From Treponema sp. (GTDB lineage: Bacteria > Spirochaetota > Spirochaetia > Treponematales > Breznakiellaceae): DNA of 46,356 nucleotides. A program made the position numbers and the translations under genes. This document shows, piece after piece, positions 17,994 through 46,356 of this stretch (position 1 is its first letter; each line of letters starts with the position of its first letter). Location: assembly GCA_031286205.1 (NCBI GenBank), contig JAITUR010000012.1, positions 1 through 46,356 on the forward strand. The letters run 5' to 3'. The notes beneath the pieces are model-generated. The model saw only the letters and a program-made list of their open reading frames with translations. It had not been told where the DNA came from and did not search any database.

Positions 17994-18031
17994 TCTATAT
18001 ATTGATATTGAAAAATATTAAGGAGTTATTT

Positions 18032-20293
18032 ATGGCGAAAAAAATCAATTTTATATTAAACATTTTACTGGCAGTTGCTTTTTTATGGAGCTGTGCAAGC
18101 TCTGCTCCGGCACCTGTTACTGAACTGGAAGTAAGGGGCGTTGTTTCTGTCATTGCGGAAGGGGATGTGGTTATTTATCCTCAGTTGGGAAATAATAGCG
18201 GTGTTTCTGCTGTTGCCTGCAATAATAACGGTTTGTTTATTCTTTCTGCTTCCGGCAATACTTTTAAATTGTGGAGTGTAAATACCGGACGCGAAATCAG
18301 GACTTTTTCCGGGCATACAAATGTTGTTCATTCCGTTGCGTTTAGCCCGGACGATAACTTTGCTGTTTCCGGCTCCGCAGACAGAACTATCAAACTATGG
18401 GACATAAACACAGGCGAGCTTCTAAAAACTTTTACCGGGCACGGTGATATTGTATATTCGGTAGTGTTTAACTCTGACGGAACACAACTGCTTTCCGGTT
18501 CCGCAGATAAAAATGTAAAATTATGGGATATTGAAACAGGAAGGCAAATAAAGAATTTTAAGGGTCATTCATCCGCTGTTTTATCGGTTGCGTTTGTTCC
18601 TGACGGAGATAAGGTTCTTTCCGGCTCCAGAGATAACACTCTAAAATTGTGGGATGTTACCCGCGGACGGGTAATTCATACGCTTGTTGGCCACACAAGA
18701 TGGGTAAGGTCTGTAAGTGTCAGCCCTGACGGAAAAAGAGCTTTGTCCGGTTCCGACGATAACAGTATAAGGCTGTGGAATCTTGAGACAGGTCAATCAA
18801 ACAGAACATTTAACGAGCACGAAAGAAGTGTATTGTCCGTAAGTTTTAGTCCGGACGGGGACTTTGCGGTATTTGCTTCTGCCGACAGAACTGTAAAAGT
18901 ATTCGATATGGAAATAATGCGTATTACAAAAAATTTTACGGCGCATGACGGTGTTGTAACATCGGCAGTATTCAGCTCTGACGGAAAACGCATAATCTCC
19001 GGCTCCGAAGATAAAACAATAAAATTATGGGATATCAGTTCCGGCCAGGAAGTTAGAACTTTTGCGGGTTTTACCAACAGTGCAACTGCGGAAACATTCA
19101 GCCCTGACGGTTATTTTGCAATTACTTCTTCCTACACAGAAAATAATAATCTAAATTTATGGGACATTGTAAACGGCCGCGGCCAAAGAGTATTTCTGGG
19201 TACTAACGGATTAATCAGCTCGGTAAATTACAGCCCCGATGGAAAACAACTGCTCTCCGGTAATCTGGACGGAAACATTCGTCTGTGGGATGCAACAGCA
19301 GGACAAGAAACACGAATACTGCAGGGGCATACGCATCCAACTCAAACAGTTATATTCAGCCCTGCAGAAAACCGCGCAATTTCCGGAGCGGACAATGGCA
19401 GTATCAGATTGTGGGATACAGGAAACGGTCGCACTCTAAATGTTTTAACAGGACATAAGGGTGCTGTTTATTCATTGGGATTTAATATAGATGGCAGGCG
19501 CTTTGTTTCGGCTTCTGCAGACAAAACAATTAAAATATGGGATGTAGCAAGCGGCAGCACACTTAGAACTTTCTCCGGACACGGCGGCGCTGTTTATTCT
19601 GCAGCATTAACCATTGATGGCAGACAAATTCTTTCCGCTTCTGCCGACAAAACTGTAAGAATTTGGGATGTAGTAACCGGCAGGGTATTTAAAACTTTTT
19701 CCGGACACAGAGAAGCCGTTACATACGCAAAATTTAATTTTGATGAATCTCAGATTTTTTCCGTCTCTAAAGATAAAACTGTAAAAATATGGGATGTAGC
19801 ATCAGGAAAAGAAATACGAACTATTCTCTTTCCTCAGGATAATATAAATTCTGTTACATTCACCCCTGACGGAACACGAATTCTTTTTGGTTCCACAGAA
19901 GGTATAGCCCGTCTTTGGGATTTAATAAACGATGTAGAAATTGTCGCGTTTATTCCGGTTATAAACAGGGAAACCGCCAGAACCACAAGTTTTGAATGGG
20001 TTTGCATTACACCGGATGGATATTACACAGCTTCTACAAATGGGGATCAGTTTCTTAATGTTCGTGTTGGCAATGAAGTTACGGGTTTAAACAGCTTCCG
20101 CAATGTTTTATACAACCCAAATATAGTGCGCTCCCGTCTGATTGGCGAATACGAAACAGCGGCTGCCGGCAAAGTAGAAACTCTGACAATACCCTCATCG
20201 CCCACTTCTCTGCCAAGAGTTGTACCAAGAATAATACCCACTTTTTTGGATGAACCCGAAGAAACGAAAGAAGCGGAAGAAGCGGAAGAGTAG
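18032..20293 (+). CDS. WD40-repeat lipoprotein with 14 blades
   Basis: The 753-residue protein starts with a lipoprotein signal (MAKKINFILNILLAVAFLWSC; the lipid-bearing cysteine follows the relaxed lipobox FLWS). I count 14 WD40 repeats by their LWD-type ends (KLWDINTG, KLWDIETG, RLWDATAG and so on). That is enough for two seven-bladed propellers. The protein ends in an acidic tail of Glu and Ala. WD40 propellers act as binding platforms, and this one would sit on a membrane facing the periplasm or cell exterior. The start at 18032 is preferred over an in-frame ATG at 17975 because it follows AAGGAG and begins the signal peptide. uvrB follows after 12 bp without its own clear ribosome binding site. 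Confidence 0.9.
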   Translation: MAKKINFILNILLAVAFLWSCASSAPAPVTELEVRGVVSVIAEGDVVIYPQLGNNSGVSAVACNNNGLFILSASGNTFKLWSVNTGREIRTFSGHTNVVHSVAFSPDDNFAVSGSADRTIKLWDINTGELLKTFTGHGDIVYSVVFNSDGTQLLSGSADKNVKLWDIETGRQIKNFKGHSSAVLSVAFVPDGDKVLSGSRDNTLKLWDVTRGRVIHTLVGHTRWVRSVSVSPDGKRALSGSDDNSIRLWNLETGQSNRTFNEHERSVLSVSFSPDGDFAVFASADRTVKVFDMEIMRITKNFTAHDGVVTSAVFSSDGKRIISGSEDKTIKLWDISSGQEVRTFAGFTNSATAETFSPDGYFAITSSYTENNNLNLWDIVNGRGQRVFLGTNGLISSVNYSPDGKQLLSGNLDGNIRLWDATAGQETRILQGHTHPTQTVIFSPAENRAISGADNGSIRLWDTGNGRTLNVLTGHKGAVYSLGFNIDGRRFVSASADKTIKIWDVASGSTLRTFSGHGGAVYSAALTIDGRQILSASADKTVRIWDVVTGRVFKTFSGHREAVTYAKFNFDESQIFSVSKDKTVKIWDVASGKEIRTILFPQDNINSVTFTPDGTRILFGSTEGIARLWDLINDVEIVAFIPVINRETARTTSFEWVCITPDGYYTASTNGDQFLNVRVGNEVTGLNSFRNVLYNPNIVRSRLIGEYETAAAGKVETLTIPSSPTSLPRVVPRIIPTFLDEPEETKEAEEAEE

Positions 20294-33254: not shown

Positions 33255-33968
33255 ATGTATGGTACTTGGGTTTTAATAACAATGTTGATAGTTTCCTCTT
33301 TTCCGGTAATAGCTGTTTATATTTGGTATCGTTTTGCAAAATATCCTGTTTCGTTAATTAAGTTATTAATTACGCTGTTAATTGGCGCCGCCGCTATTTT
33401 TCCTGCCATTCTTTTACAAAATCTTGTATCATTGTTTAGTCCTTCGGGCAACAGGGCAGCGTTGTTTTACGAGTTCTTTTTTCGCATAGCCTTTTCAGAA
33501 GAACTAAGCCGCATGATGCTTTTGTTTATTTTCTTTTTATTGGCTGGTTTATTAAAACCTAAAGAAGACAGCCAGCCGCTTTCCTGGAGTTCTGTAAAAA
33601 TGGGGACAGCGCTGGGGCTTGTTGCGGGTCTTGGGTTTGCTATTCTGGAAAACGCCGTTTATTCGGCTTCTAGTATGGATATAAACCTGCTGCTGCTACG
33701 GGCAGTTACAGCCGCCCCTATCCATGCCGCCTGCGGTTCCCGCGTTGGCTCTGCCGCAATAATGCTTCGTACAAATCCCGCCCAGGCAATCTTCCGCCTG
33801 CTATCGGCAACAGCTATTCACGGTATTTACAACCTGATGGTTACCATGCCCGGATTCCCCATAATACTGGCAATATTAATAGCCTTCTCCGCCCTTATAA
33901 CCGCAATTCTTTCGATTAAGGGAAGCTGGGAAGGAGAAGGTCTTGACAAGACTGTAAAAAATAAGTAA
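33255..33968 (+). CDS. PrsW-type intramembrane metalloprotease
   Basis: The 237-residue protein has about seven membrane segments and the motifs of the PrsW/CPBP-like protease group. These are E82-E83 in FSEELSR, E132-N133 in GFAILENAVY and H157 in AAPIHAACG, which together could bind a catalytic metal within the membrane. PrsW of Bacillus cuts an anti-sigma factor. Here the target is unknown, and no anti-sigma gene is adjacent. It is a single gene followed by the initiator tRNA 14 bp later. Confidence 0.85.
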   Translation: MYGTWVLITMLIVSSFPVIAVYIWYRFAKYPVSLIKLLITLLIGAAAIFPAILLQNLVSLFSPSGNRAALFYEFFFRIAFSEELSRMMLLFIFFLLAGLLKPKEDSQPLSWSSVKMGTALGLVAGLGFAILENAVYSASSMDINLLLLRAVTAAPIHAACGSRVGSAAIMLRTNPAQAIFRLLSATAIHGIYNLMVTMPGFPIILAILIAFSALITAILSIKGSWEGEGLDKTVKNK

Positions 33969-34330: not shown

Positions 34331-35680
34331 CTAATAGAATCTGGTTTCATTTTGTTCCTTTCTCTTATCAATAAACCATGCGTACCACGGTTCCGGGGTT
34401 TTATTCCAGCCAATAAGCCATGCGTTTATTGGATCTAAACCAGAAGCCCCCTGGCTATTAAGCATTATAGAATTGCCAAGAAGTGTTTTAAAATTTCTTT
34501 CTACTTCCAGTGGGACTATGCCTTGTTCGTAATATAAATCTTCTGCGCCAAAAGCATGAAAAATTTCATGTGCTAAAGTTCCGGCGGTAAATCCTCTTGC
34601 ATCTTTAAACCATAATATAGCATGTTCTTCGCTTCTGCCCAGCGATCCTGCATATGTAATATAAGAACGCTCTGTTTTATCGACAGCATATACAGTAATA
34701 ACATGATTAAAATTTCTATATCTGTTTCGATATAAAGAATATTGCTGCAATCCTTTCGCACTATTATTCATGGTAAAATATGAGTCGTACTCCCATTCTA
34801 TCGTTATATTTTGATTATATCGTCTTGCCTGCTCTTTAATTATATTTAGCCCATCCTGGACAATAGGTGTAAGATTGTTAAAATTCATTCTAAATCTATT
34901 GCCTTTATAATTTGTTGGAATAATTAATACTTTAATTCGTCCAGAAATATTACGCCTGCCTTCTTTTTTTGCCGCCAAAATTTCTATTAGTAAATCATTT
35001 TGAAGATTTTCGATTAACCTGTTTCTTTCTGTTTTCTGTTGCGTATTATTTTGTCCGGTTGGGCTTTGATTATTTTGATCGTTCTCTATTTGTTTTTTAA
35101 TTTGATCCAACTGGTCAGTAATTTGTTCCTGATGCTCTGTTATTCTTTTTAGCTCCTCTATTCTTTCATCGATAATACTATCAACTATTTCTTTGGATGC
35201 AGCTTTATATGCAAAATTAAAGATTAATGTAATAATAAAAATAATAGCAACAATAAAGCTAGACCATTTTACAATAGGTTTTTTCCATAATAAAATCAGT
35301 TGATTGCTAATTTGATTTTTAATAGAGCTCGAAGACTGAATTAGACTTGGGGCGGCTGGGGCAGGCGCAATATTTCCAAATATTGTTGCATCAAGTATAT
35401 CTAAAGCGTCTCTGCATAGAGATAAATTTATACCTGTAGTACTTTGTAATTTTTGGGATAAGCTTGATTTTACCTGGCTGCGCTCGTTCATATTTTGCGC
35501 TTTTTTTAACTCTTTGTAACAACCAATTTCTATACAGCGTCCAAAAGCAATGCGTTCTGCCTTTGGTTCGTTTTTTGTATGTTTGGCAAGTATTTTCTTT
35601 AACCGCAAGGGATCGCCAAGAATGTATTCCCCATGCTGCGAAACAACCCATTTTATACTTGCCAAAAGTGACCTATTCAT
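34331..35680 (-). CDS. Membrane-anchored HExxH metalloprotease with shared N-terminal adaptor domain
   Basis: The 449-residue protein has four parts. Residues 1-102 form a helical domain also found at the start of the proteins at 35710 and 40438 (with the block EPKxERxAFGRCIEIG). A membrane segment lies at 139-160 and a coiled coil at about 165-215. The C-terminal part is a zinc protease domain with H371-E372-x-x-H375 followed by FGAEDLY, like the HExxHxxGxxD site of gluzincin/metzincin-type enzymes. By the topology of a single uncleaved anchor, the protease would face the periplasm. It is the last gene of the TerY-type operon and a good candidate for the effector. An AAGG ribosome binding site precedes the ATG. 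Confidence 0.8.
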   Translation of the reverse strand: MNRSLLASIKWVVSQHGEYILGDPLRLKKILAKHTKNEPKAERIAFGRCIEIGCYKELKKAQNMNERSQVKSSLSQKLQSTTGINLSLCRDALDILDATIFGNIAPAPAAPSLIQSSSSIKNQISNQLILLWKKPIVKWSSFIVAIIFIITLIFNFAYKAASKEIVDSIIDERIEELKRITEHQEQITDQLDQIKKQIENDQNNQSPTGQNNTQQKTERNRLIENLQNDLLIEILAAKKEGRRNISGRIKVLIIPTNYKGNRFRMNFNNLTPIVQDGLNIIKEQARRYNQNITIEWEYDSYFTMNNSAKGLQQYSLYRNRYRNFNHVITVYAVDKTERSYITYAGSLGRSEEHAILWFKDARGFTAGTLAHEIFHAFGAEDLYYEQGIVPLEVERNFKTLLGNSIMLNSQGASGLDPINAWLIGWNKTPEPWYAWFIDKRKEQNETRFY

Positions 35681-35709
35681 TTATTTACCTTGAGAATTTG
35701 ATGATTATC

Positions 35710-36912
35710 TTACGATTTTTTGATATTAACAACAAAACTTACTTTGCCAAAATCAACTTTCTCTCCATTTTGCAAATCCCTTCGCTGGCTTGTTTTTTTG
35801 TCATACATTACAACTTTTGAATTCTCTATTTGTACTGTCGCTCTTACAGGCGGTTCAGTTTCTTTAGAGAGGTATATATCGGCGCTTGAAGATGAACCAA
35901 AAATAATCGGCTTTTCTCCTAACGAAATTGTTCTTGTTTCGTTCTTACCCCAAATTATCGTAAGCCATGCTTGCCGTAGAGCTTCTTCTACGATAGAGAT
36001 GGTTAATCCAATAAAAAGTCCCAAAGTTGCATTCCCAAAAAATCTACCTGCTATATTTGAAAGTGAAGGTGCCAACACAATAAAAAAAATGCCGCCTATT
36101 ATTCCGCCAAAAAATCCGGCTATTACTGCACGCTTTTTTGGATAATTTGGTACAAATAATGAAACACCCCAACCTATTCCTAGCCCCATAATTCCCCAGC
36201 AGATAACTCTGATTACTTCTAAAACTATAAATGAAACATGATTATATATCGAACCAAATATTAATTGTGCAATTCCTCCTGATACAGCGCCCATACCTAT
36301 ACCAATAAGCATGGTTTTTATAAAAGTTATTAATTCAGGTTTCTTTTTTTGATATATGTTTTGTGCTATCAGCAATCCAACAGAAATTCCAAATCCAATA
36401 AATGCTGCCCATATGGCTGTGTCAAAAATTAATCTTATCCTTGAAAATGAATCTTCGTGTGTAATAAATCCTTCAGAAAGATATGAACCAAAAGCACCGC
36501 CCAATGCCCCAACTATACCAAAAATAATTGTCCTAATGCTAATTTTATTTTTACCGGATTGTGTACCAAAAATTGTATTTGATTGCATTGCAGTATATGG
36601 GGAAGTTTTATAAACAACAGCTTCTAATATATCAAGAGCTTCTTCGCACAATTTTTTTTCTATCCCTGTTTTTGCATGAAGTTGATTTGCAAGCAATGAT
36701 TTTTTCCTTTTTCTTTCGTTTTCAGCAGTTGTATTTTTTAACTCCCAATACGCTCCTATTTCTATACATCGTCCAAAAGCGGCTCTTTCGTCTTTTGGTT
36801 CATCTTTTGCATAATCCTTAAACAAAGGATTTAATTTTTGCGGATCGGCAAGTACATTCTCGCCCCTTTCGTTAACAATTCGTTTTACAATATTCAGTAA
36901 GTTAGTATTCAT
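35710..36912 (-). CDS. Polytopic membrane protein with shared N-terminal domain and degenerate FHA domain
   Basis: The 400-residue protein starts with the same domain as its neighbour (residues 1-101, EPKDERAAFGRCIEIGAYWELK). A glycine-rich membrane region with about six to seven helices follows (about 127-315). The C-terminal FHA-like beta domain (326-397) contains ISLGEKPIIFGSSSSADIYL. FHA domains bind phosphothreonine and would suit the kinase in this operon. However, the conserved arginine after the first glycine and the SRxH motif are not kept (FGSSSSADI; VRAT), so phosphopeptide binding is uncertain. The start codon is directly behind the phosphatase gene, with AAGGAG inside its end. 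Confidence 0.8.
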   Translation of the reverse strand: MNTNLLNIVKRIVNERGENVLADPQKLNPLFKDYAKDEPKDERAAFGRCIEIGAYWELKNTTAENERKRKKSLLANQLHAKTGIEKKLCEEALDILEAVVYKTSPYTAMQSNTIFGTQSGKNKISIRTIIFGIVGALGGAFGSYLSEGFITHEDSFSRIRLIFDTAIWAAFIGFGISVGLLIAQNIYQKKKPELITFIKTMLIGIGMGAVSGGIAQLIFGSIYNHVSFIVLEVIRVICWGIMGLGIGWGVSLFVPNYPKKRAVIAGFFGGIIGGIFFIVLAPSLSNIAGRFFGNATLGLFIGLTISIVEEALRQAWLTIIWGKNETRTISLGEKPIIFGSSSSADIYLSKETEPPVRATVQIENSKVVMYDKKTSQRRDLQNGEKVDFGKVSFVVNIKKS

Positions 36913-37908
36913 TTAAATCTCCTTATCTATTGAAGTTTTTTTCTGTTTATCTGCAACAAAGTCGCCGTAATTTTCAGGATTCCCGTTTTTTTTAATCTGT
37001 TCCTGCCATATTGGAACAACTTTTTTTACGGCAGCCATATCAATGAAACCTGCAATGCTTGTATCATCCCCTTTTCCTTTGGTTGCAAATGAATCCGCTA
37101 AATCTTTTAACTGGTAAAATGTTGATTCAAAACCGTCTTCTGCAAAGGTAAGTGCAATGGTTCTGTATATTTTAAATAAGTATTTTTCGTTTTCATTAAC
37201 CGGATAATTATCATCTATACCGTCAGTGCAAAGAAAAATTGCTACAGGAGATTTATTCTTATCGTGGAAAGACGAATAACACCGTGCCTGTTCAAAAGAA
37301 TCATCATCACAGATAGATGTTGTTACATTAAGATAACATTTTTCATCCCAGAGAACAGGCTGATCGCAGCTTCCGTCAGAATAAAGGGCGGTAAGGCGTC
37401 CATCTCCTATATGAATACCAAACCAGTAATGCTCCGTAATAGCGGCAGCTATAAGTGTTGCACCATAAACTTTGGTTAAGCTATTGCCTGCCTCGTATCT
37501 TTTTTTATATTTTTCGTCGGCGAGTGCAAGTTCGTCGGAGCTGAATGGATTTGCCGTATAATCTTCTTCTACTCTTGCCTGCCAGGAAGCAATAATATGT
37601 TTAACCAGATCGCGGATTGCCTTATCAAACTCGCTTTTTGCGGGAATATCCTTTTTTTTAAAAAGACCCGAAGAAAATTTAGGTTCGTAAACTTTTACAA
37701 ATTCTTCTATCCCTCTTGCAGCACAGGCAACAGCCAGTTTTGCTCCTTTATTGCTTCTAAAACAATTCCCGTCTCCATGACCATCAGAAACTGCCGCAAT
37801 GGAAACAATATCTTTCTCGCTGCAAAACGAAGCATCCTGACAGCCTTTTCCTTGTTTGATATGGCTGCCGCCTGTTACAGTAATTGCAAATGATTTATAT
37901 ATACTCAT
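36913..37908 (-). CDS. PP2C-type protein phosphatase of a TerY triad
   Basis: The 331-residue cytoplasmic protein is a PP2C-family serine/threonine phosphatase that needs two metal ions. The motif SDGHGDG (41-47) supplies the first metal-binding aspartate, FLCTDGIDDNY the second, and GKGDDTSIAGFID the last. In TerY-P systems such a phosphatase stands with a kinase and a vWA protein, presumably to reverse their phosphorylation. I start it at 37908, where TAATG joins the vWA stop codon to the ATG. A TTG two codons earlier would also be in frame. Confidence 0.93.
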   Translation of the reverse strand: MSIYKSFAITVTGGSHIKQGKGCQDASFCSEKDIVSIAAVSDGHGDGNCFRSNKGAKLAVACAARGIEEFVKVYEPKFSSGLFKKKDIPAKSEFDKAIRDLVKHIIASWQARVEEDYTANPFSSDELALADEKYKKRYEAGNSLTKVYGATLIAAAITEHYWFGIHIGDGRLTALYSDGSCDQPVLWDEKCYLNVTTSICDDDSFEQARCYSSFHDKNKSPVAIFLCTDGIDDNYPVNENEKYLFKIYRTIALTFAEDGFESTFYQLKDLADSFATKGKGDDTSIAGFIDMAAVKKVVPIWQEQIKKNGNPENYGDFVADKQKKTSIDKEI

Positions 37909-38645
37909 TACCAATCCAATTGATCATTATCAGGGGAGACGGCTATTTCTCCGGCAAATTCTTGTAAGTTTGCATTTAATTCCTGCTGTTTTTGCTCGTC
38001 GCCGGTATATGCACCTTCTACGCCGGCATTGGAACTTTTACTGGCAACCTGAGAAGCACGAACACTTACAAACTTTATCATTTTCTTTAATGTCGCAGCA
38101 TTGTGAGTTTCTAAAACAGCTTCCATAGAACCGGTAAATTCTTTTAACATATCTTTATTTGCATCGTCGCCTATGGCAATAGCTACTTTAACGCCTGCCT
38201 TAAACCAGTTGTTTTGTTTTAGCAATGCCAAAACACTATGCCATTCATCTGTAGGTTCGCCGTCAGAAAGTAAAAATATAGCAGGCGCAAAAGAACCGGT
38301 AGCTTCCTGCATAAAAGCTTTTGTAGAAAGTTTATCGTTCAATGTTTTGCAGGCTGCTCCAAAATCCGTAACACCTGAGGCATCCAAATAATTCCAGCGA
38401 AATTGTTCTGCTTCTACAGGACCATTTGCGGTAATCCACCTTGCACCGGAAGAAAATTCAAGAGCAGCAATTTTTATTTGCGCATCGGCATTTTCATCCG
38501 AGACTTCCCTAATTGCGGGAATAACTTCTTCGATTGCGACATTTACTGCTCCGATTTTATTTCCATCCATACTTCCCGAAGTATCAATGATAAAAAATAA
38601 AACCATTGTTCTTCTTGGGATTTCGATTTTGTCCATTAACGACAT
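37908..38645 (-). CDS. terY: TerY-like vWA domain protein
   Basis: The 245-residue protein is a von Willebrand factor A domain with a full metal-ion-dependent adhesion site: DTSGS (21-25), the threonine in SGVTDFG, and LLSDGEPTD. The overall wording matches the TerY group of the tellurite-resistance and stress-response gene families. There TerY with a kinase and a phosphatase forms a predicted phosphorylation switch. It is probably cytoplasmic and acts as a metal-dependent scaffold. AAGGAG precedes the ATG. The symbol reflects the family; no tellurite-resistance core genes (terB, C, D) lie in the window. Confidence 0.9.
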   Translation of the reverse strand: MSLMDKIEIPRRTMVLFFIIDTSGSMDGNKIGAVNVAIEEVIPAIREVSDENADAQIKIAALEFSSGARWITANGPVEAEQFRWNYLDASGVTDFGAACKTLNDKLSTKAFMQEATGSFAPAIFLLSDGEPTDEWHSVLALLKQNNWFKAGVKVAIAIGDDANKDMLKEFTGSMEAVLETHNAATLKKMIKFVSVRASQVASKSSNAGVEGAYTGDEQKQQELNANLQEFAGEIAVSPDNDQLDW

Positions 38646-38666
38646 ATTCTTCTCCTTAAATATTAA

Positions 38667-39941
38667 TTAAATTACCTCGGCATTTGCATGACCAAAGTTG
38701 ATTTTTATATCCTTTTTTAACAAGATTGATGCATCAGGCGCTATGGAAATACTGTTATCTCCGTCTATTACCGTCCAGTTTATTTTTGATACATTTTTTA
38801 ACTCAAACTCATTATCCTTTTCTGTTACTTCGCCGGTTATGGTTAAAAAATCGTCGGAGTCTTTTTCTGTATGGCATATATATAATTTTGTCCGCTGATG
38901 AACCGGCAGATTATATCTGTATGTTTTTATATATAATGGAAATATATTTTGCTTTTTACATCCAGGACAGGAATTGTTATTTACCGGATCTGCAAAATAA
39001 ATTATACCGCAGGGGCATTTAAAAATTTCCGACCTCATACGAATAAAAGTTCTTAACCATTCCTGCTCTATAATTCTATTTGAAGGATCTGTTAAAATAT
39101 CCTTACTAAATGCTTTAATAAATAAGTCCCGTACATATTCCGGCAAAAACGGCCATCGGACGATAGCACCTTTATGGAGTCCTTGCACCGGTCTATTGGA
39201 AATATCATTTGGATCCCAGACAAATACGGGGTTTTCGCCATAAATTTTTCTTTCGTGTTTTGCATCCATACATACAGGACAAGCGGCCTTTCCTTCCAAG
39301 GGATGATTATTTGTCCACAATAAAAACAACACTACAGAAAGCGAAAACCTGTCTGTTTTTATATCAGGTTTGGCTCCCTTTGCCACGATTTCAGGCGCCA
39401 TATAGCGCGCCTTTCCTGCAATGCCGGAATTTTTTCCGTATTCCGAAACATTATCGTTATCGCATATAAGCACATCGCCATTTTTTGGGTTAATAAAAAA
39501 GTTGCCGTCGTTTAAATCCTGATAACTATAACCTTTGGCATGTAATTCGCGAAAACCTGCTGTTATATGTAAAGCAGCATTTGTCATTGCTGTTATACTT
39601 GCAAAACCTTCTTTACCTATAAGGAATTTGGAAAAATCTTTATAATCGCCCGGTCTTAAATCCATAATATAGCCAAAAGCTGTTCCTTTATAATCTGTTA
39701 AATCTTCCGGCCATAAAAATGCTTTTGTCGGCTTTCCTTTTTTTATATTATTTTCCAGATTAGTGTAAAATTTCTTAGGGTCTTTAAATTTTTTACCCGA
39801 GTACCATTTTAGCGCCTTTGGTTTACCATCGTAGCTTACATGGTATACTGCGCCTTGCCCGCCTTCGCCAAGTTTATTGTTTACAATAACTTTCTTAAAG
39901 TTTCTTGTTTGTATTGTAAATCCTTTTTGTAAATCTAGCAT
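38667..39941 (-). CDS. Protein kinase with zinc ribbon, of a TerY triad
   Basis: The 424-residue protein is a eukaryote-type protein kinase. It has the glycine loop GEGGQGAVY (25-33), K45, the catalytic loop YQDLNDGNFF with D141 and N146, and the metal aspartate D160 (CDND in place of DFG). The activation-segment end APE is at 181-183. The HRD arginine is replaced by Gln, as in many kinases of these clusters. A zinc ribbon (CPCG and CPGC, near residues 309-328) and a small beta domain follow. It is expected to phosphorylate partners in the operon. The ribosome binding site is GAGGAG; vWA follows after 21 bp. Confidence 0.93.
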   Translation of the reverse strand: MLDLQKGFTIQTRNFKKVIVNNKLGEGGQGAVYHVSYDGKPKALKWYSGKKFKDPKKFYTNLENNIKKGKPTKAFLWPEDLTDYKGTAFGYIMDLRPGDYKDFSKFLIGKEGFASITAMTNAALHITAGFRELHAKGYSYQDLNDGNFFINPKNGDVLICDNDNVSEYGKNSGIAGKARYMAPEIVAKGAKPDIKTDRFSLSVVLFLLWTNNHPLEGKAACPVCMDAKHERKIYGENPVFVWDPNDISNRPVQGLHKGAIVRWPFLPEYVRDLFIKAFSKDILTDPSNRIIEQEWLRTFIRMRSEIFKCPCGIIYFADPVNNNSCPGCKKQNIFPLYIKTYRYNLPVHQRTKLYICHTEKDSDDFLTITGEVTEKDNEFELKNVSKINWTVIDGDNSISIAPDASILLKKDIKINFGHANAEVI

Positions 39942-39974
39942 TGATTGTTCTCCTCGTGTTGTGTATTTGGACTG

Positions 39975-40014
39975 GCAACACCAAAATCATTTCAATTTTG
40001 GCGTTGCTTTTTTT
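39975..40014 (+). terminator. Strong hairpin with T-run, oriented against the operon
   Basis: A 13-bp stem (39975-39987 with 39995-40007, one G-T pair) encloses a 7-nt loop and is followed by seven T on the plus strand. It lies between two minus-strand operon genes. On the minus strand the T-run is a preceding A-run, so termination there should be weak. Confidence 0.7.
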
Positions 40015-40020
40015 AGATTA

Positions 40021-40215
40021 TTAGTCCTTAACTTCTGCATCAAGACACATAGAGGGGCGCATATAACCCGAACGGTCTGCATTATTTTCTACCACATGAT
40101 CAATAGGAATATCAAACAGTGTGCATTTCGGATATTTTTCATAACGACAATTTCCGCATCTCTCCTTATCATTTTCAATTTCAATTATATCATTACCTTT
40201 TCTTACCTTTGTCAT
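40021..40215 (-). CDS. Small four-cysteine protein in the TerY operon
   Basis: The 64-residue protein has C20, C23, C31 and a later cysteine (PSMC), in RCGNCRYEKYPKC. It could bind one zinc ion or an iron-sulphur cluster. I know no family for it. It lies between the WD40 protein and the kinase on the same strand, with AAGGAG 7 nt before its ATG, so it is most likely a real part of the system. Its task could be a small adaptor or redox or metal sensor, but that is a guess. Confidence 0.7.
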   Translation of the reverse strand: MTKVRKGNDIIEIENDKERCGNCRYEKYPKCTLFDIPIDHVVENNADRSGYMRPSMCLDAEVKD

Positions 40216-40254
40216 TTATTTTCTCCTTCTACGGTAAAGATCTGACATCTATTA

Positions 40255-40350
40255 TCAGTCATTACCTGTGTAATTTTTATCTCCGTCCTTCATACAAAGT
40301 CCGGTCGCACGCACAAGAACCGTGCCTGTTCCTGCCTTGCTTTATTTCAT
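40255..40350 (-). pseudogene. Short frame broken by a stop at codon 3
   Basis: A textbook GAGGAGG (40364-40358) stands 7 nt before an ATG that is followed by AAA and then TAA. The same frame then stays open for 28 codons (SKAGTGTVLVRATGLCMKDGDKNYTGND) to TGA. This is either a small gene with a nonsense mutation or a two-codon leader ORF. It lies in the 222-bp gap between the WD40 gene and the four-cysteine protein gene. Confidence 0.35.
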
Positions 40351-40437
40351 ACTTCTGCCTCCTCTTCTCCTAAAATTTTACCTTAACAATATCTGGTATA
40401 AATCCAGTTTAATAAACATAAGACCAATTACTTTTTA

Positions 40438-41952
40438 CTATTTTTCTCCAAAAGTTCTAATTTCTCTGCCACTTGCTACATCCCAAAGTTTGATTGTTCC
40501 GTCACTGGAACCAGAAAGCGCATGCCTGCCGTCAGGGCTGAAGCTTACTGAATTAACGCCAAGAGTATGTCCTGTAAAAGTTCTGATTACTGTACCGCTT
40601 GCTACATTCCAAAATTTGATCGTTTTGTCTATGGAACCAGAAAGCGCATGCCTGCCATCAGGGCTGAAGCTTATCGAAGTAACACTAGAGGTATGCCCTA
40701 TAAAAGTTCTGATTACTCTGCCGCTTGTTACATCCCAAAGTTTGATTGTTTTATCTATGGAGCCAGAAAGCACCTGCCTGCCGTCAGGACTGAAGCTTAC
40801 TGAATAAACACCTAAAGTATGTCCTGTAAAAGTTCTGATTTCTCTGCCGCTTGTTACATCCCAAAGTTTGATTGTTCCGTCACTGGAACCAGAAAGCGCA
40901 TGCCTGCCGTCAGGGCTGAAGCTTACCGAAGTAACAGAAGAGTGTCCTGTAAAAGTTTTGATTACTGTACCGCTTGCTACATTCCAAAGTTTGATTATTC
41001 CGTCCCTGGAACCTGAAAGCACCTGCCTGCCGTCAGGACTGAAGCTTACTGAATAAACACCAGAAACACCAGAAAAGTGTTCTGTAAAAGTTCCGATTTC
41101 TCTACCGCTTGCTACATCCCAAAGTTTGATTCTTCCGACTCTGAAACCAGAAAGTACCTGCCTGCCGTCAGGGCTGAAGCTTACTGAATAAACACCAGAA
41201 GAGTGTCCTGTAAAAGTTCCGATTTCTCTACCGCTTGCTACATTCCAAAGTTTGATTATTCCGTCCCTGGAACCTGAAAGCACCTGCCTGCCGTCAGGAC
41301 TGAAGCTTACTGAATAAACACCACGAGTATGTCCGGAAGTAGTACCAGAAGTATGTCCTCGCTGTGGAAAAACTTCTTTTAAGAATGAAGGCATAAATTG
41401 ATAAAAATATTGGTAAAAATAAAAAAACGACAAAACCAATCCGATAGCTATAATTAATGAAATTATAATAATTTTCTTAGTTTTCTTTTTTTTCGGCACA
41501 GGTGTTAAACTTATCCGTTTTTTTGTATTTTTCAGATTAGACCCAATAACATCAGCCTCCCGGCGAGTAACGCCAGAACTGCAATGTGGACAAGTTTTCC
41601 ACTCTTCCTGTAATTCTTTTTTACAGTCTTTACAGATATTTTTCTCTTTTTCCTGCTCCTTTAAAACCAAAATTAACATATCTACAAGGTCTGCGGCAAC
41701 TTCTTCCGCCAAAAAATGTTCTTCCCTTAATACTCTTATTTGCTGCTTTTTGCATATTTCTAAATTATCTGCTGTCTCTATCGCTTTTTGCACTCCTGCT
41801 TCAATGGCTTGTAACAAAAGACGGCTTTCTTTTTTATAGTCCCCGCGGGTATAATCGGCTAATAATGCTTTTAATTTTGCTACATTAGACAAAACTTCCT
41901 TGCCCTGTTCTTCGATGAGTTTTTTTATAACGGTAACAAAATCCTGATTCAT
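40438..41952 (-). CDS. Membrane WD40 protein with shared N-terminal domain and zinc ribbon
   Basis: The 504-residue protein starts with a divergent copy of the domain shared with the proteins at 34331 and 35710 (residues 1-100). It continues with a zinc ribbon (C107, C110, C121, C124), a basic linker, a membrane segment (about 160-182) and seven WD40 repeats (about 209-504). The topology suggests the propeller is outside the cytoplasm, where it could sense or bind a ligand or protein. It is the first gene of the TerY-type operon, with AAGGAAGG before the ATG. It is divergent from an XRE regulator. The WD40 repeats are nearly identical, unlike those of the lipoprotein at 18032. Confidence 0.88.
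   Translation of the reverse strand: MNQDFVTVIKKLIEEQGKEVLSNVAKLKALLADYTRGDYKKESRLLLQAIEAGVQKAIETADNLEICKKQQIRVLREEHFLAEEVAADLVDMLILVLKEQEKEKNICKDCKKELQEEWKTCPHCSSGVTRREADVIGSNLKNTKKRISLTPVPKKKKTKKIIIISLIIAIGLVLSFFYFYQYFYQFMPSFLKEVFPQRGHTSGTTSGHTRGVYSVSFSPDGRQVLSGSRDGIIKLWNVASGREIGTFTGHSSGVYSVSFSPDGRQVLSGFRVGRIKLWDVASGREIGTFTEHFSGVSGVYSVSFSPDGRQVLSGSRDGIIKLWNVASGTVIKTFTGHSSVTSVSFSPDGRHALSGSSDGTIKLWDVTSGREIRTFTGHTLGVYSVSFSPDGRQVLSGSIDKTIKLWDVTSGRVIRTFIGHTSSVTSISFSPDGRHALSGSIDKTIKFWNVASGTVIRTFTGHTLGVNSVSFSPDGRHALSGSSDGTIKLWDVASGREIRTFGEK
40460..41345 (-). repeat. Seven near-identical WD40-coding repeats of about 126 bp
   Basis: Each unit encodes about 42 residues of the form VYSVSFSPDGRQVLSGSRDGTIKLWDVASGREIRTFTGHT. 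Long stretches of DNA (for example around CCGTCAGGACTGAAGCTTAC) recur without change from copy to copy. Such identity points to recent duplication or gene conversion. Confidence 0.9.
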
Positions 41953-42169: not shown

Positions 42170-42517
42170 ATGACTGATTTTTCGCAGCGTTTACGCTCAG
42201 AAATTGAGTATATAGACCTCAATCAAAAGGAATTTGCCGCAAAAGCAGGAATAAAAAAACGAGCTTTAGAAGCTTATTTAGGCCCACAACAATCCATGCC
42301 GCCTGCCGATATAGCGGTAAAAATGGCTACTGTTCTTGGGTTATCCGTCGAATACCTGGTGACAGGCAAGGAATTCAAGAAAACTGTAGATATTTCTAAG
42401 TACCTGCAATTCAAGGGTATCCTTGACGATCTAGCAATCCTTCCACAAGAAACCCTCGACCCCATAAAATCTGTAATAAAAGCCTTCGCAGACAACGAAC
42501 GAAGTAGAATAGGATAA
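42170..42517 (+). CDS. XRE-family transcriptional regulator
   Basis: The 115-residue protein has an XRE/Cro-type helix-turn-helix domain at about residues 5-66 (LNQKEFAAKAGIKKRALEAYL...ADIAVKMATVLGLSVEYLVTG). A short helical tail may aid dimer formation. It is transcribed away from the TerY-type operon, and three similar palindromes lie in the shared upstream region. It therefore most likely represses itself and the operon. BrnT/BrnA follow 95 bp downstream with their own promoter. No Shine-Dalgarno sequence is seen before the ATG. Confidence 0.9.
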   Translation: MTDFSQRLRSEIEYIDLNQKEFAAKAGIKKRALEAYLGPQQSMPPADIAVKMATVLGLSVEYLVTGKEFKKTVDISKYLQFKGILDDLAILPQETLDPIKSVIKAFADNERSRIG

Positions 42518-42562
42518 TTTAACCCCCTGCAAAGAAGTATGACTGCAATAACGATATTCTCC

Positions 42563-42600
42563 TTGACAAGTATAAAAAACGGCTATACATTTAAGTATAG
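42563..42600 (+). promoter_or_regulatory. brnT promoter with overlapping operator palindrome
   Basis: TTGACA (42563-42568) is the likely -35 element. The -10 region (TATACA or TACATT, 42584-42591) lies within an inverted repeat CTATACATTTAAGTATAG (42583-42600; 6-bp arms, 6-bp centre). BrnA antitoxins repress their own operon, so this is a good candidate for the operator. Confidence 0.65.
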
Positions 42601-42612
42601 ACGGGAGAAGCT

Positions 42613-42909
42613 ATGTTTACATGGACAGAAGAAAAAAATCAGCTTAACAGAAAAAAACATGGTTTTTTCTTTTCTGAAATAACAGATGTTTTCGACGATC
42701 CGTATTTGATTGAATTTTTTGATGAGGCTCATTCGACAACGGATGAGGAAAGATACATTTGTTTAGGTCGTTGGCAGGATTTTTTTATCTTGTCTGTGGT
42801 ATTTACAGAAAAAGGTGACAACATTCATCTTATAACAGCACGAAAAGCCACTACAAAAGAAAGGAAAATTTATGAAGAAAATTACAAAAAAGAGACTAGC
42901 AGAAATTAA
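42613..42909 (+). CDS. brnT: BrnT-type ribonuclease toxin
   Basis: The 98-residue protein matches BrnT (DUF497), a RelE-fold ribonuclease toxin. The family start is clear: FTWTEEKNQLNRKKHGFFFSEITDVFDDPYLIEF. The usual middle (ERYICLGRWQDFFILSVVFTE) and end (IHLITARKATTKERKIYEENY) with basic active-site residues are also present. The ribosome binding site GGGAG is 5 nt before the ATG. The antitoxin gene starts 38 bp before this gene ends, in another frame, and is thus translated from the same mRNA. Confidence 0.94.
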   Translation: MFTWTEEKNQLNRKKHGFFFSEITDVFDDPYLIEFFDEAHSTTDEERYICLGRWQDFFILSVVFTEKGDNIHLITARKATTKERKIYEENYKKETSRN

Positions 42910-43135
42910 ATCATTCAAGGTTACCGACTATTCGGATGCCCCGGAATTAACCGATGAACAATTAGCGCAAATGAAACCTTCTCATTTGCGGAATATGGCA
43001 AATTATAAGCCTGTAAAAAAAACAGTAAATGTTCGTCTTGACGCTGATGTGATTGAATGGCTACAAAGTGCAGGAAAAGGCTATCAGACTCGTATGAATT
43101 CAATTCTTCGAGAAGCTATGTTGCATTCTGTGTAA
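42872..43135 (+). CDS. brnA: BrnA-type antitoxin
   Basis: The 87-residue protein matches BrnA, the antitoxin that binds BrnT and represses the operon as a DNA-binding dimer. The N-terminal half binds the toxin (SDAPELTDEQLAQMKPSH). The C-terminal half is a ribbon-helix-helix DNA-binding domain (VNVRLDADVIEWLQSAGKGYQTRMNSILREAML). The AAAGGA ribosome binding site lies inside brnT, and the overlap of 38 bp is longer than usual for the family. Confidence 0.94.
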   Translation: MKKITKKRLAEIKSFKVTDYSDAPELTDEQLAQMKPSHLRNMANYKPVKKTVNVRLDADVIEWLQSAGKGYQTRMNSILREAMLHSV

Positions 43136-43162
43136 TAATAATTAGAAAAGGAGAAATAGATA

Positions 43163-43336
43163 ATGAGTAATGAAAACAATGAAACAACTATTCAAACAAC
43201 AGAAACACTAAAATCTGAAACACCAGAGAGAATCAATCTTGCTACACCGAGACCTTCAGACACAAAGGTTCTGAATAATTCCTTGACAGGAAGAACTTTT
43301 ATACAACTAAGCGATACAGAGAAAAACGAGGAGTGA
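43163..43336 (+). CDS. Small hydrophilic protein downstream of brnTA
   Basis: This 57-residue frame begins 27 bp after brnA behind AAAAGGAG (43146-43153), with 9 nt to the ATG. Its product (from MSNENNETTIQTTETL to SDTEKNEE) is rich in Thr, Asn and Glu, looks disordered and matches no family I know. The ribosome binding site and position suggest a third gene of the brnTA operon. It could also be a chance frame. Confidence 0.5.
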   Translation: MSNENNETTIQTTETLKSETPERINLATPRPSDTKVLNNSLTGRTFIQLSDTEKNEE

Positions 43337-43368
43337 CATTAAAGATTAAGTATCTTGTCCTGATAACT

Positions 43369-43902
43369 CTATCTAAGATAATTTACTAAAAGAAATGCCA
43401 AGAAGCTAGTCAAAGGAAGAATTGCGCAAAATGTAACGGCAATTCTAAAATTCCAAGCTCTTTTATTAATTATTATATAATCTTGTAAAATGCAATTATG
43501 TAAATTAATTATATTTCCAACAAACAGCTCGCGCATATTTCTTTTATAATAATCATCTGTAAGGTACGCTCTTGGCGACCCTACTCCTTGGTTAATGCTA
43601 CGAGGTACAATTATAAACAACAAGTTGAAGGTGATCACAAAAAGACAAACACCTGCCCAGCTTGCGGTAAATAAAATATAACAAGAAAGCTCTCCCCAAG
43701 TTATTGCAAGATAACCAGCTAAAGCTGTCATAATTGGCATGATAAAAGAAAGCATGCCAAGGGCTTTGTCACATATTCGGTTATTATTTTCTATAATTCC
43801 TTTGTGATGTTCCAAAGCTTCATTATAAATGAATTCTGCTTTTTTCTCGTCAATTTCCTTCCAATCAATTTTTGTGAAATCAATACTTTCTTCTGCTTGC
43901 AT
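43369..43902 (-). CDS. Membrane protein of unknown function, possible defence effector
   Basis: The 177-residue protein has an N-terminal cytoplasmic helix (about 1-45), two adjacent membrane segments (about 47-100), a cytoplasmic loop and a last membrane segment (about 152-176). I recognise no family. The layout of a helical head followed by a few membrane helices recalls small membrane effectors of nucleotide-based defence systems, but there is no nucleotide cyclase gene in the window, so this remains a guess. The ribosome binding site GAGAGG precedes the ATG. It is convergent with the small gene after brnA. Confidence 0.65.
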   Translation of the reverse strand: MQAEESIDFTKIDWKEIDEKKAEFIYNEALEHHKGIIENNNRICDKALGMLSFIMPIMTALAGYLAITWGELSCYILFTASWAGVCLFVITFNLLFIIVPRSINQGVGSPRAYLTDDYYKRNMRELFVGNIINLHNCILQDYIIINKRAWNFRIAVTFCAILPLTSFLAFLLVNYLR

Positions 43903-44018
43903 TTTAACCTCTCTTAATTAAGTATATCATAATTTATAGAATTATCTCCTTAAACCTGGAACATAAAACTGGACAAAATCGGCTGATTCTCTGAAGTTTT
44001 AGATACCTCAAAAAGAGC

Positions 44019-44381
44019 CTATATATCGTGTATTTCCTTATCTATAGCTGCTTTTGCTATAGTATCATCAACTGCTAATTCATTAGGATAACGAACTGCA
44101 ACTCCGTAAGGGGTTAAATCTGCACAAGCATCCATGATTTCTAAGAAATTACTATCATGAATAATACACATCTGGCATAACTCGACTAAATTATGGGTTT
44201 TGGGCGGGGTTGTATCCTTAAAAAATAAAAATCCTTTTAATGCTTTCTCTGCACATTGCTGACTAAGATAGCAGGCAATTTCTGTCTGTTTTGGGTATAA
44301 ATTATTAAACAAATGTTTTGCCGATATTAAATCATTCGTGGAATAGTTAAACCACTCATGTACCAGATTAATGTCGCTCAT
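44019..44381 (-). CDS. HEPN domain protein
   Basis: The 120-residue helical protein matches the HEPN family partnered with small nucleotidyltransferases (YLSQQCAEKALKGFLFF...PPKTHNLVELC). In such toxin-antitoxin pairs the HEPN protein is often an RNase with an R-x4-6-H motif. That motif is not evident here: the typical place reads VRYPNELAVDD. It may thus act differently or be inactive as an RNase. Its start overlaps the end of the nucleotidyltransferase gene by 14 bp, so the two are translated together. Confidence 0.9.
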   Translation of the reverse strand: MSDINLVHEWFNYSTNDLISAKHLFNNLYPKQTEIACYLSQQCAEKALKGFLFFKDTTPPKTHNLVELCQMCIIHDSNFLEIMDACADLTPYGVAVRYPNELAVDDTIAKAAIDKEIHDI

Positions 44382-44694
44382 AGAGAATCACTCCATCACT
44401 GGCTATTCTTCGTTCTATGGTTGGCTGTGTACTGCGCCACTCAAAGCGGGATTTGTAGTTGGCAAGGACATCTATTGGCGGTGTCATTGGTCTTTTTGCC
44501 AAGCTGCGATAAATCTTTTGAAGGACTAAAATTGGCTTCTCGGTATCATCTTCCAAAACTACAAAAAAGTCATAATCACTGTCTTTGCGAGGGTCTCCAT
44601 AAGCATGAGAACCAAAGAGAATTATCTTTTCGCAGGTTTCGCCAACAGTATTGAGAATGTCATCTTTAATTGCGATAATATTATCGTTTATCAT
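44368..44694 (-). CDS. MNT-type nucleotidyltransferase
   Basis: The 108-residue protein is a minimal nucleotidyltransferase with the active-site signature GSHAYGDPRKDSDYD. The turn is G28-S29, and the metal-binding aspartates are D40 and D42. In HEPN/MNT pairs this protein is the antitoxin and in studied cases adds AMP groups to the HEPN partner. The ATG follows AAGGA. It forms a two-gene operon with the HEPN gene downstream. Confidence 0.93.
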   Translation of the reverse strand: MINDNIIAIKDDILNTVGETCEKIILFGSHAYGDPRKDSDYDFFVVLEDDTEKPILVLQKIYRSLAKRPMTPPIDVLANYKSRFEWRSTQPTIERRIASDGVILYERH

Positions 44695-44827
44695 CTTCTT
44701 ATCCTTTGGAAAATAAAACCCAATTGAGAGGGGCTAATATCCAAAACTACCCCAACCAATGTTTTAATTATCATGCCAAAACCATTACTTGTCAAGGCAA
44801 AGGGATATATAGAGTCCCCTGCTTTTA

Positions 44828-44856
44828 TTGACAACATGGAGAAGCTGATATATGCT
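44828..44856 (+). promoter_or_regulatory. Promoter of a candidate small RNA
   Basis: TTGACA (44828-44833), 17 bp and TATGCT (44851-44856) form a good sigma-70 promoter facing the plus strand. The start of transcription would be near 44863. No plus-strand gene of credible length follows. Confidence 0.5.
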
Positions 44857-44862
44857 TAGTAT

Positions 44863-44945
44863 GCGGGGTTTGAATGTTATACACGCCCTGCCCAATGACC
44901 GGGAAACCGGTTTTTATATAATGGGGCTGAAAAGCCCCTTTTTTT
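44863..44945 (+). ncRNA. Candidate small RNA of about 83 nt with three hairpins
   Basis: The expected transcript starts near 44863 and contains three hairpins. The first is GCGGG/CCTGC (44863-44867 and near 44887-44891), the second is ACCGG-GAAA-CCGGT followed by T, and the last is GGGGCT-GAAA-AGCCCC (44923-44938) with a seven-T run. The last is a clear intrinsic terminator. The region lies between the MNT and DUF167 genes, both on the other strand, so the signals have no other user. A 32-codon frame from the ATG at 44861 also exists but runs through the terminator. Confidence 0.45.
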
Positions 44946-45249
44946 ATCGTATCGTATAATGAATATTGCAAACAGTTTCTAAGTTTTGAATATAATTTAC
45001 CGGCACTGAAACGGTTTTTAATCTTGACTTCTCGCCTTTTATAAGTACAACGCTACTCTTTGCACATCCAATAGTTTTGGCAAGAAACTTGCAAAGGCTG
45101 GTGTTGGCTTTTCCATCTTCAGGCGGAGAAGTTATTCGAATACATAAACGGTTGTCTTTTATTCCGGTAATTTCATTTTTAGAAGCATTAGGGGTGGTTT
45201 TTATATTGAGATATATTTTTTCATTTTCTATATAATAAATATTTTCCAT
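44944..45249 (-). CDS. DUF167 (YggU-type) protein
   Basis: The 101-residue protein matches the DUF167 family: KTTPNASKNEITGIKDNRLCIRITSPPEDGKANTSLCKFLAK, then a GEKSRLKTVSV end. Members are small alpha/beta proteins found in all domains of life with no settled function. The ATG has no Shine-Dalgarno sequence. It stands 8 bp after the stop of a 28-codon frame that does have one, so translation is probably coupled. Its stop codon overlaps the T-run of the plus-strand terminator. Confidence 0.88.
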   Translation of the reverse strand: MENIYYIENEKIYLNIKTTPNASKNEITGIKDNRLCIRITSPPEDGKANTSLCKFLAKTIGCAKSSVVLIKGEKSRLKTVSVPVNYIQNLETVCNIHYTIR

Positions 45250-45257
45250 TGTTCTAT

Positions 45258-45344
45258 CTATGCAGAGCGAAATGCATCTAAACTTTTATATCGCATAAAA
45301 TATTTTAATTCATTTCTGTCTGTGTGTAATTCACTCCTTTGCAT
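45258..45344 (-). CDS. Short leader ORF before the DUF167 gene
   Basis: A 28-codon frame (MQRSELHTDRNELKYFMRYKSLDAFRSA) has a perfect AAGGAGG (from 45357) 6 nt before its ATG and ends 8 bp before the DUF167 start codon. The next gene lacks its own ribosome binding site, so this frame may load ribosomes for it. The peptide has no known family. Confidence 0.4.
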   Translation of the reverse strand: MQRSELHTDRNELKYFMRYKSLDAFRSA

Positions 45345-45501
45345 AAAATACCTCCTTAATTTGTAAATTCTTCAACAGATTATTAATTTAATCTGAGGTA
45401 ATTATATAACCAAAGAGAGATATCTTCTACCTTGTATTTTTTAGCTATAATTTTCTTATTATCTTTGCCTAAATTGTAATAACACATATACTCTCGTTCA
45501 C
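45345..45501. other. AT-rich spacer between the DUF167 leader and the nuclease gene
   Basis: Apart from the ribosome binding site of the short leader ORF, I see no gene or clear hairpin. The stretch must hold the promoter of the DUF167 transcript; several TATAAT-like strings make the exact place unclear. Confidence 0.4.
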
Positions 45502-46356
45502 TCACTCACCATCATCCTTCGGCTCCAAAAAATATTCTACCTGTTTTTGCCCTTTTCCGCTAGCCAGCAATTTACGGCGTTCAAGGCGTTCCTGTGCTTC
45601 AGACAAAATTGCTTTTATCTTTTCTTCCAACAATGCTTTTGGCGGCAGGTTTGTCCAATATTCGGCAACAGCGATTCCGGCTTTGTCTAGTTCCAGAAGT
45701 TCAATTTGGTTTCGGCTTGCCTTTGTGCAAAGGATTAATCCAATAGGCTCGTTTTCTCCATCTTTTCGTTCATATTTATTAAGCCATTTCAGGTAAAATT
45801 CCATTTGCCCCTTGTACTGCGGAATAAACTTGCCTATTTTTAATTCAATCGCTACTAGGCGTTTTAGAACACGATGGAAAAACAAAAGATCAAGCGTGAA
45901 GTCTTCATCATCCATTGTCATCCGTTTTTGTCGTTCGACAAATGTAAATCCATGACCAAATTCCAGGATAAACGCTTCAAGTTCTTTTAGGATGGCTTTT
46001 TCCAGATCGGATTCCAAAAAGTTTTCCTTTAGAGCTAAAGTATCAAGAAGATATGGGTCTTTAAAAACATTGAATGGAACAACTGACTTATCTGAAATTC
46101 GAGCATTTGCAATTTCCCGTCTTTCGTATGCTTTCCGAGATATTTGATACCGGAGTTCTCTTTTACCCAAATGGCGAACTGCTGCATCGTTTGCATAATA
46201 TAGTCTTGCTTCCTGTGACTCCAACGGCAAAATTTCAACAAAATGCGACCAGCTCAATTGTGTCGCCAGTGGCGACACAATCTTTATTTCTGGAAAAACA
46301 TCAGCAAATTGAACCATGCGTCTAAGGTTACGCAATTCAAAACTATTGCCATATTT
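45502..46356 (-). CDS. PDDEXK nuclease family protein (YhcG/DUF1016), 5' end outside the window
   Basis: The frame is open to the window edge, so the N-terminus is missing; 284 residues are visible. The visible start (KYGNSFELRNLRRMVQFADVFPEI) and the core match the YhcG/DUF1016 family. The PDDEXK-type nuclease site is seen in FTLDLLFFHRVLKRLVAIELKIGKF, where D, E and K of the motif stand in order. Such proteins are common in accessory regions and are thought to be nucleases; their target is not settled. A TTG at 46335 is not the true start, because homology continues upstream of it. Confidence 0.93.
   Translation of the reverse strand, partial: KYGNSFELRNLRRMVQFADVFPEIKIVSPLATQLSWSHFVEILPLESQEARLYYANDAAVRHLGKRELRYQISRKAYERREIANARISDKSVVPFNVFKDPYLLDTLALKENFLESDLEKAILKELEAFILEFGHGFTFVERQKRMTMDDEDFTLDLLFFHRVLKRLVAIELKIGKFIPQYKGQMEFYLKWLNKYERKDGENEPIGLILCTKASRNQIELLELDKAGIAVAEYWTNLPPKALLEEKIKAILSEAQERLERRKLLASGKGQKQVEYFLEPKDDGE

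Follow-up and report, generated by a model that had tools for sequence, protein, structure and literature searches.

A candidate third type of TerY-P triad in Treponema sp., with partner proteins probably linked by a seven-helix adaptor domain

Genes and features of the locus

The stretch of DNA analysed here, referred to throughout as the window, comprises the 46,356 nucleotides of contig JAITUR010000012.1 from the Treponema sp. assembly GCA_031286205.1. Between positions 34331 and 41952 it carries six genes, all on the minus strand; from the first transcribed to the last, they are named here A, K, V, P, E and F (Table 1). K encodes a protein kinase that carries a zinc ribbon, V a vWA protein of the TerY-like kind and P a phosphatase of the PP2C class; A, E and F encode membrane proteins that begin with one common helical domain and end in a WD40 propeller, an FHA-like domain and a metzincin-type protease, respectively. 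Our reading as a whole, namely that the locus represents a third type of TerY-P triad, whose partners are linked by a seven-helix adaptor and for which a working and a purpose are proposed below, has about even chances of being right.

The initial annotation of the window had reported the kinase, the TerY-like vWA protein and the PP2C phosphatase side by side and grouped them as a TerY-P triad, and the Pfam matches agree with it; by its sequence the triad is a TerY-P-type module, with the kinase–zinc ribbon protein, the vWA protein with its MIDAS motif and the adjacent phosphatase all present. Residue conservation was counted in relatives from 80 loci, which were retained from 173 confirmed relatives in a scan with the kinase and are designated here, like further loci, by L numbers. 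The kinase lysine, the catalytic aspartate, the asparagine and the DFG-type aspartate are kept in 80 of the 81 K relatives, the remaining one being gapped, and the ribbon cysteines in 78–79 of them (others gapped); the MIDAS residues are kept in 72–74 of 74 vWA relatives and the metal residues of the phosphatase in 65–67 of 67 (others gapped). Since the catalytic residues are intact, the triad probably does set a phosphorylation state, as had been suggested. K, V and P occur together in 59 of the 68 loci that have at least 2.5 kb after K, and P is the sole PP2C_2 match in the genome. PADLOC assigns none of V, P, E and F to a family, and the models that it returns for K are those of kinases from other systems (best PD-T4-6, 1.5e-14). 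A second FHA domain, considered for the C-terminal region of K, was rejected (profile comparison probability 9.6% over 20 columns). Four loci from uncultured Ruminococcus/Clostridia (L026, L031, L034, L052) have the kinase and a membrane protein with the shared domain, and no vWA or PP2C match nearby.

A single, mostly tight operon on one strand had also been described. This fits K to F, which are separated by 21 bp, a 7-bp overlap, 0 bp and 29 bp (from the coordinates of the open reading frames, ORFs), but A lies 496 bp from K, and because this gap contains a small ORF and a strong hairpin, a single operon that includes A is unproved. The 14-bp hairpin stands directly upstream of K (within 39945–40030, z −5.1) and, in plus-strand reading, is followed by a T-run. 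The same gap holds the four-cysteine small protein of the initial annotation: the ORF exists, but it was discarded as a zinc subunit, having no Pfam match and no credible relative in the kinase loci.

Table 1. Coordinates of the genes, domains and motifs of the locus (aa, amino acids; TM, transmembrane)
Feature	Position	Strand	Description and basis
Protein A, 504 aa	40438–41952	minus	Shared domain, zinc ribbon, one TM helix, seven WD40 repeats; ORF and WD40 match 8.8e-90
A, shared helical domain	41662–41952	minus	Profile match 2.4e-27 (profile includes this row)
A, CxxC...CxxC ribbon, residues 107–124	41581–41634	minus	Sequence
Four-cysteine ORF, 64 aa	40021–40215	minus	Probably no conserved part; no Pfam match; best tblastn E 0.40
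Kinase K, 424 aa	38667–39941	minus	Pkinase 6.5e-16; zinc ribbon, then a further C-terminal region
K, zinc ribbon, four Cys, residues 309–328	38958–39017	minus	Cys kept in relatives; TerY_C match weak, 0.019
TerY-like vWA protein V, 245 aa	37908–38645	minus	VWA 1.7e-6; complete MIDAS motif
PP2C phosphatase P, 333 aa	36913–37914	minus	PP2C_2 1.3e-31
Protein E, 400 aa	35710–36912	minus	Shared domain, TM region of six long helices, FHA-like domain
E, shared helical domain	36616–36912	minus	Profile match 1.7e-27 (profile includes this row); seven helices, pLDDT 93–98
E, FHA-like domain, residues 330–400	35713–35925	minus	Usual phosphothreonine-binding residues missing
Protein F, 449 aa	34331–35680	minus	Shared domain, one TM helix, coiled coil, metzincin-type protease
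F, shared helical domain	35384–35680	minus	Profile match 1.7e-22 (profile includes this row); pLDDT 93–98
F, HExxHxxGxxD zinc motif (HEIFHAFGAED), residues 371–381	34538–34570	minus	Sequence
F, possible Met-turn	34460–34474	minus	

The shared helical domain and its linkage to the kinase

The N-termini of A, E and F consist of one domain of about 100 residues, in accordance with the earlier claim that the three membrane proteins have a domain in common. It is matched in all three by a whole-genome profile search (Table 1), and the domain of E, used as a single-sequence query, finds F at 49% (2.6e-26) and A at 31% identity (7.1e-6). The 2.34-Mb genome (~94% complete) contains three copies, all at this locus. 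AlphaFold2 predicts seven helices at high confidence in two separate predictions, those of E and F (for the scores, as predicted local distance difference test, pLDDT, see Table 1); fold searches with these models were dominated by parts other than the shared domain. The domain of the window has no Pfam match, and over 85 rows Pfam gives scattered, chance-level matches with no family in more than two; sequence searches of PDB and PHROG returned no credible match. No description of it was found in the titles and abstract openings searched, though an earlier one may exist, and within these databases and this literature it appears to be undescribed. It was matched in none of the labelled K, V and P proteins of the 80 loci, the further loci and the window, and when its profile was compared with those of K, V and P, the probabilities stayed below 1%.

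An iterated profile search found the domain in 61 of the 80 related-kinase loci, in 97 proteins from seven phyla. Because the profile had been trained on loci chosen by their kinase, three checks were made. Counted genome-wide, with kinases accepted at E up to 1e-40, the 194 genomes of the window's order include 20 with the domain and 24 with the kinase: 15 have both, five the domain only, nine the kinase only and 165 neither. Eight of the nine kinase-only genomes belong to one family, in which a diverged copy of the domain stands beside one triad (L105, 3.3e-8) and a poor match was obtained in another (L106, 0.034). In one domain-only genome (L100), a 4.1-kb contig carries the domain gene next to a gene for PP2C, and in another (L101) 19 kb of sequence yielded no triad gene. 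Among 198 genomes of a second order, the domain occurs in one and the kinase in two, the sole genome with both being the chosen centre; among 67 genomes of a third, the domain occurs in four (one at 4.7e-4) and the kinase in three, all of which, the centre included, have both. Nine of 2313 plasmid records with a kinase match were examined, and the two with a close kinase, neither of which entered the profile training, both carry the domain (in two and five proteins). The seven loci of ter- or CoCoNuT-type that were examined are without it (0/7).

Some observations weigh against such a linkage: 19 of the 80 kinase loci lack the domain, some of them on short contigs and six on at least 15 kb, and one genome has 17 domain matches on contigs other than that of its kinase. 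The whole genomes of 12 domain-less loci were searched, and a copy is present in 11; the twelfth, the genome of L064, has none. Nevertheless, the loci and the two plasmids show that the domain goes with this branch of kinases in different phyla, and the earlier claim that the domain ties the membrane proteins to the triad is upheld. Two IMG/VR contigs, which are candidate viral sequences, carry the kinase, and one of them also encodes V, P and a pair of proteins with the domain.

A kinase tree was built by a quick method from 77 of the 88 kinases (the other 11 being near-copies and partial loci), with long branches flagged in the outgroup and in L108. The four ter-linked rows form one branch and the three CoCoNuT-linked rows another, and the 70 window-type kinases lie across a fully supported split from both (100% support in the Shimodaira–Hasegawa-like approximate likelihood ratio test, SH-aLRT). 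Among the window-type kinases, those of Helicobacteraceae and Zoogloeaceae are paired within a clade that is rich in spirochaetes and also contains Prevotellaceae, Tannerellaceae and Fibrobacterota, a mixture of phyla that is a sign of horizontal transfer, unless bins are mixed.

Attached parts and a proposed working of the system

The initial annotation would count its reading as refuted if triad homologues regularly lacked A, E and F, and for these three particular proteins that is the case: in single-sequence searches (E 1e-5) of the 80 loci, the WD40, TM–FHA and metzincin parts occur together in none. Relatives of the protease part of F were found in one locus (L002) and relatives of the TM–FHA part of E in four (L001, L002, L016, L018), with the domain at the opposite end in L016 and the TM–FHA part as a separate gene adjoining a domain protein in L018; relatives of the propeller of A occur on a shared-domain protein in one locus (L009) and on one further contig (L100). 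The partner scan covered 88 domain proteins, namely the three of the window and 85 from the loci after removal of near-copies and short fragments, and gave, among the commonest 25 of 133 Pfam families, Sel1 in 10, TPR in up to eight per model, LRR_5 and WG repeats in seven each, the zinc ribbon Zn_Ribbon_1 in nine, FGE-sulfatase and MORN in five each and Fib_succ_major in three; rarer enzymatic partners may exist. The constant unit is the triad with changing, domain-tagged partners and not the A/E/F set; the domain is more general than this threesome, which is local. Since the attached parts change and the domain persists, it probably acts as an adaptor. By eye, tandem runs of three domain proteins with FGE-like ends were seen at L099:10388-14421 and L094:399-5025, possibly the target of a diversity-generating retroelement.

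The propeller of A is built from a 126-bp unit repeated 7.0 times (40450–41334), with a mean identity of 74% and mean nonsynonymous (dN) and synonymous (dS) divergences of 0.18 and 0.24, figures in which two small-indel repeats were left unrealigned and inflate the differences. Its candidacy as a hypervariable sensor of the HET-E kind was rejected: variation does cluster at the positions known from HET-E (p 0.002), but the test does not discriminate, as the same result (p 0.0006) is given by an ordinary 772-aa WD40 protein from the same window, in which a script found five repeats. This protein (17975–20293) has numerous WD40 repeats and, by eye, a start like that of a lipoprotein, and is a relative of the propeller without the shared domain. 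As for topology, seven lysines or arginines lie in the 15 residues before the TM helix of A and two after it; the charges around that of F (two and three) are undecisive, and export of its protease part is favoured by a relative that starts, by eye, with a signal peptide- or lipobox-like segment. The propeller of A and the protease of F likely lie outside the cell.

The HExxH protease noted earlier in F is confirmed as metzincin-type: F has a metzincin fold and the HExxHxxGxxD/H zinc motif, which is identical in L002 and differs in L090 by a single A-to-T replacement; in Pfam it has a weak match to Reprolysin_5 (0.025) only, and a search of IMG/VR gave no match to its protease part. At L090:4284-16345, an exported-looking relative of the protease stands among genes that resemble tubulin and Hsp70, with a duplication of the Hsp70-like one, in what is possibly, by eye, a GTPase-centred conflict system. 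The FHA-like end of E matches Yop-YscD_cpl, an FHA relative, at 2.8e-4, under the family cut-off; a fold search supports the FHA fold that had been named initially, but the arginine and SxxH residues of the phosphothreonine-binding motif are absent in all five of its relatives.

In the proposed model, the helical domains would gather at the inner membrane, either by clustering with one another or by docking on the triad. A would serve as the sensor, its propeller meeting a ligand outside the cytoplasm and shifting the balance between kinase and phosphatase; V, which would bind metal and perhaps a peptide, could act with the K/P pair to determine how far the cluster is phosphorylated. E would act as a membrane scaffold that holds the complex via its shared domain and FHA-like end, and F, a membrane-tethered metzincin, might cut envelope proteins once the cluster has rearranged, although its role as the output falls slightly short of even odds. 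The likeliest purpose would be defence or conflict, against phages or rival cells, because an antiphage member of the TerY-P class has been reported, the system is mobile and has a patchy distribution, and recognition folds are frequent among the partners; the available part of the report in question describes a TerY-P triad active against T7-like phages (PMC7699616). A defence role is plausible on these grounds, with chances that are about level. More tentatively, exchangeable receptors (propeller, LRR, TPR, Sel1, C-type-lectin-like FGE) and effectors may be joined by the seven-helix tag to a constant kinase–vWA–phosphatase core, which would make the system a kinase-based counterpart of adaptor-domain immune networks, with sensor and protease effector outside the cytoplasm. 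TerY-P triads are known add-ons to tellurite and restriction systems; with one recognisable tag on the partners, likely clients could be found by it, and what feeds into a whole class of bacterial phosphorylation switches, and what they act on, could be put to the test.

The genomic setting bears on this purpose. Upstream of A (42170–46335) lie genes for a helix-turn-helix protein, BrnT/BrnA, a membrane protein, a HEPN/nucleotidyltransferase pair, DUF167 and a YhcG-type nuclease that matches the PADLOC PDC-S02 models (6.4e-98); the 177-aa multi-TM protein at 43369–43902, without a Pfam match, has the look, by eye, of a small membrane effector. In the flanks of 12 other loci, where 100 of 110 ORFs were compared, 19 PADLOC models matched; 100 control ORFs of the same 12 genomes (contig 1, first 5–14 kb) matched nine, five of them shared, at a greater summed length. 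A defence-type setting is clear for the window's own flank alone and not for the 12 other loci.

Alternatively, the adaptor-linked triad would watch the state of the envelope or an outside nutrient, and its protease would trim envelope proteins, with no enemy involved. Three membrane partners at this locus, the lack of a clear richness in defence genes in those 12 flanks, and attached repeat folds that are general binding folds suit such envelope-stress or housekeeping control, as does a gene for a PrsW-type intramembrane protease (33255–33968), convergent with F; the PrsW family figures in envelope-stress control in Bacillus. Housekeeping control is usually more evenly distributed, however, and the kinase is patchy, being present in 24 of the 194 genomes of the order and in two of the 10 other same-genus genomes listed; moreover, phyla interleave in its tree and two plasmids carry the triad–domain system. 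We regard this alternative as doubtful, though to be taken seriously. It is unlikely, too, that the domain is a substrate tag in place of a docking adaptor, phosphorylated by K and dephosphorylated by P so that tagged proteins are switched singly. Proteins that hold little beyond two domain copies (L019–L021), the 17 matches off the kinase's contig in one genome, which would suit diffusing clients, and the absence of the domain from every core protein examined all speak for it; the lack of any outstanding conserved serine or threonine, only a glycine column reaching 90% over the 85 rows, speaks against it. That domain and triad merely co-travel on the same mobile elements without joint function, as the mixing of phyla in the tree and the occurrence on plasmids might suggest, is highly improbable, since their association is kept over deep divergence (kinases 36–82% identical), domain genes often lie directly beside the triad and the genome-wide counts agree.

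Comparison with WD40 receptors, effector-associated domains and other TerY-P types

With fungal NLRs whose WD40 sensors are homogenised, such as HET-E, protein A shares, as far as the available parts of the sources describe them, tandem WD40 repeats of near-equal length that are alike in DNA and differ mainly at surface positions (PMC1805685, PMC12222747, PMC4986451); its repeats are 74% alike, under the 85% used for fungal NLRs in these sources, and it has no NACHT domain. A second likeness is to effector-associated domains (EADs), which, in the part of the source available, belong to vWA-MoxR and GTPase-centred conflict systems (PMC7159879); the same part notes that, in actinobacteria, 10% of GAP1-N2 neighbourhoods contain kinase–zinc ribbon, PP2C and vWA genes. 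Like EADs as described there, the shared domain is small, helical and non-enzymatic, occurs as several copies in adjacent genes with differing partners, is fused to effector- or sensor-like parts, some of them FGE-sulfatase, and has extra copies elsewhere in some genomes. It differs in that it was never found fused to a core component, and has no Pfam match; because such a fusion is the first mark of an EAD, it is not filed as one. MoxR, VMAP and GAP1 were not recognised in the window, where no search by name was made.

TerY-P also occurs in Type II and III-A CoCoNuT systems, according to the available part of the source (PMC11090510). The three loci assigned to this type from their neighbour genes (L110–L112) resemble the window in having the kinase, vWA and, in two of three, PP2C beside variable machinery. 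Their neighbours are AAA and DUF2357 genes in L110 and L111 (those of L112 are without a name), whereas neither was seen in the flanks of the window, and the shared domain occurs in none of the three.

A further comparison is with ter-linked TerY-P (Escherichia coli pF1022-1, Enterobacter hormaechei, Hymenobacter and Aromatoleum plasmids; L115, L109, L113 and L114), all four of which match the K, V and P profiles. Some window-type loci show further ter likeness: a TerY_C-like small gene precedes K in 13 of the 80 (14 ORFs; Pfam TerY_C 2e-10 in the one tested, L005), and L042 has a TerD match. The initial annotation invoked a usual tie of the triad to tellurite-resistance or effector genes; ter genes were not found here, with no TerD match in the genome and no ter family, the mark of the ter-linked subtype, among the flanking genes scanned near the window triad. 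Ter-linked loci have the gene order vWA, PP2C, kinase, with the kinase last, form a separate kinase branch and carry the shared domain in none of four, whereas the window type runs kinase, vWA, PP2C.

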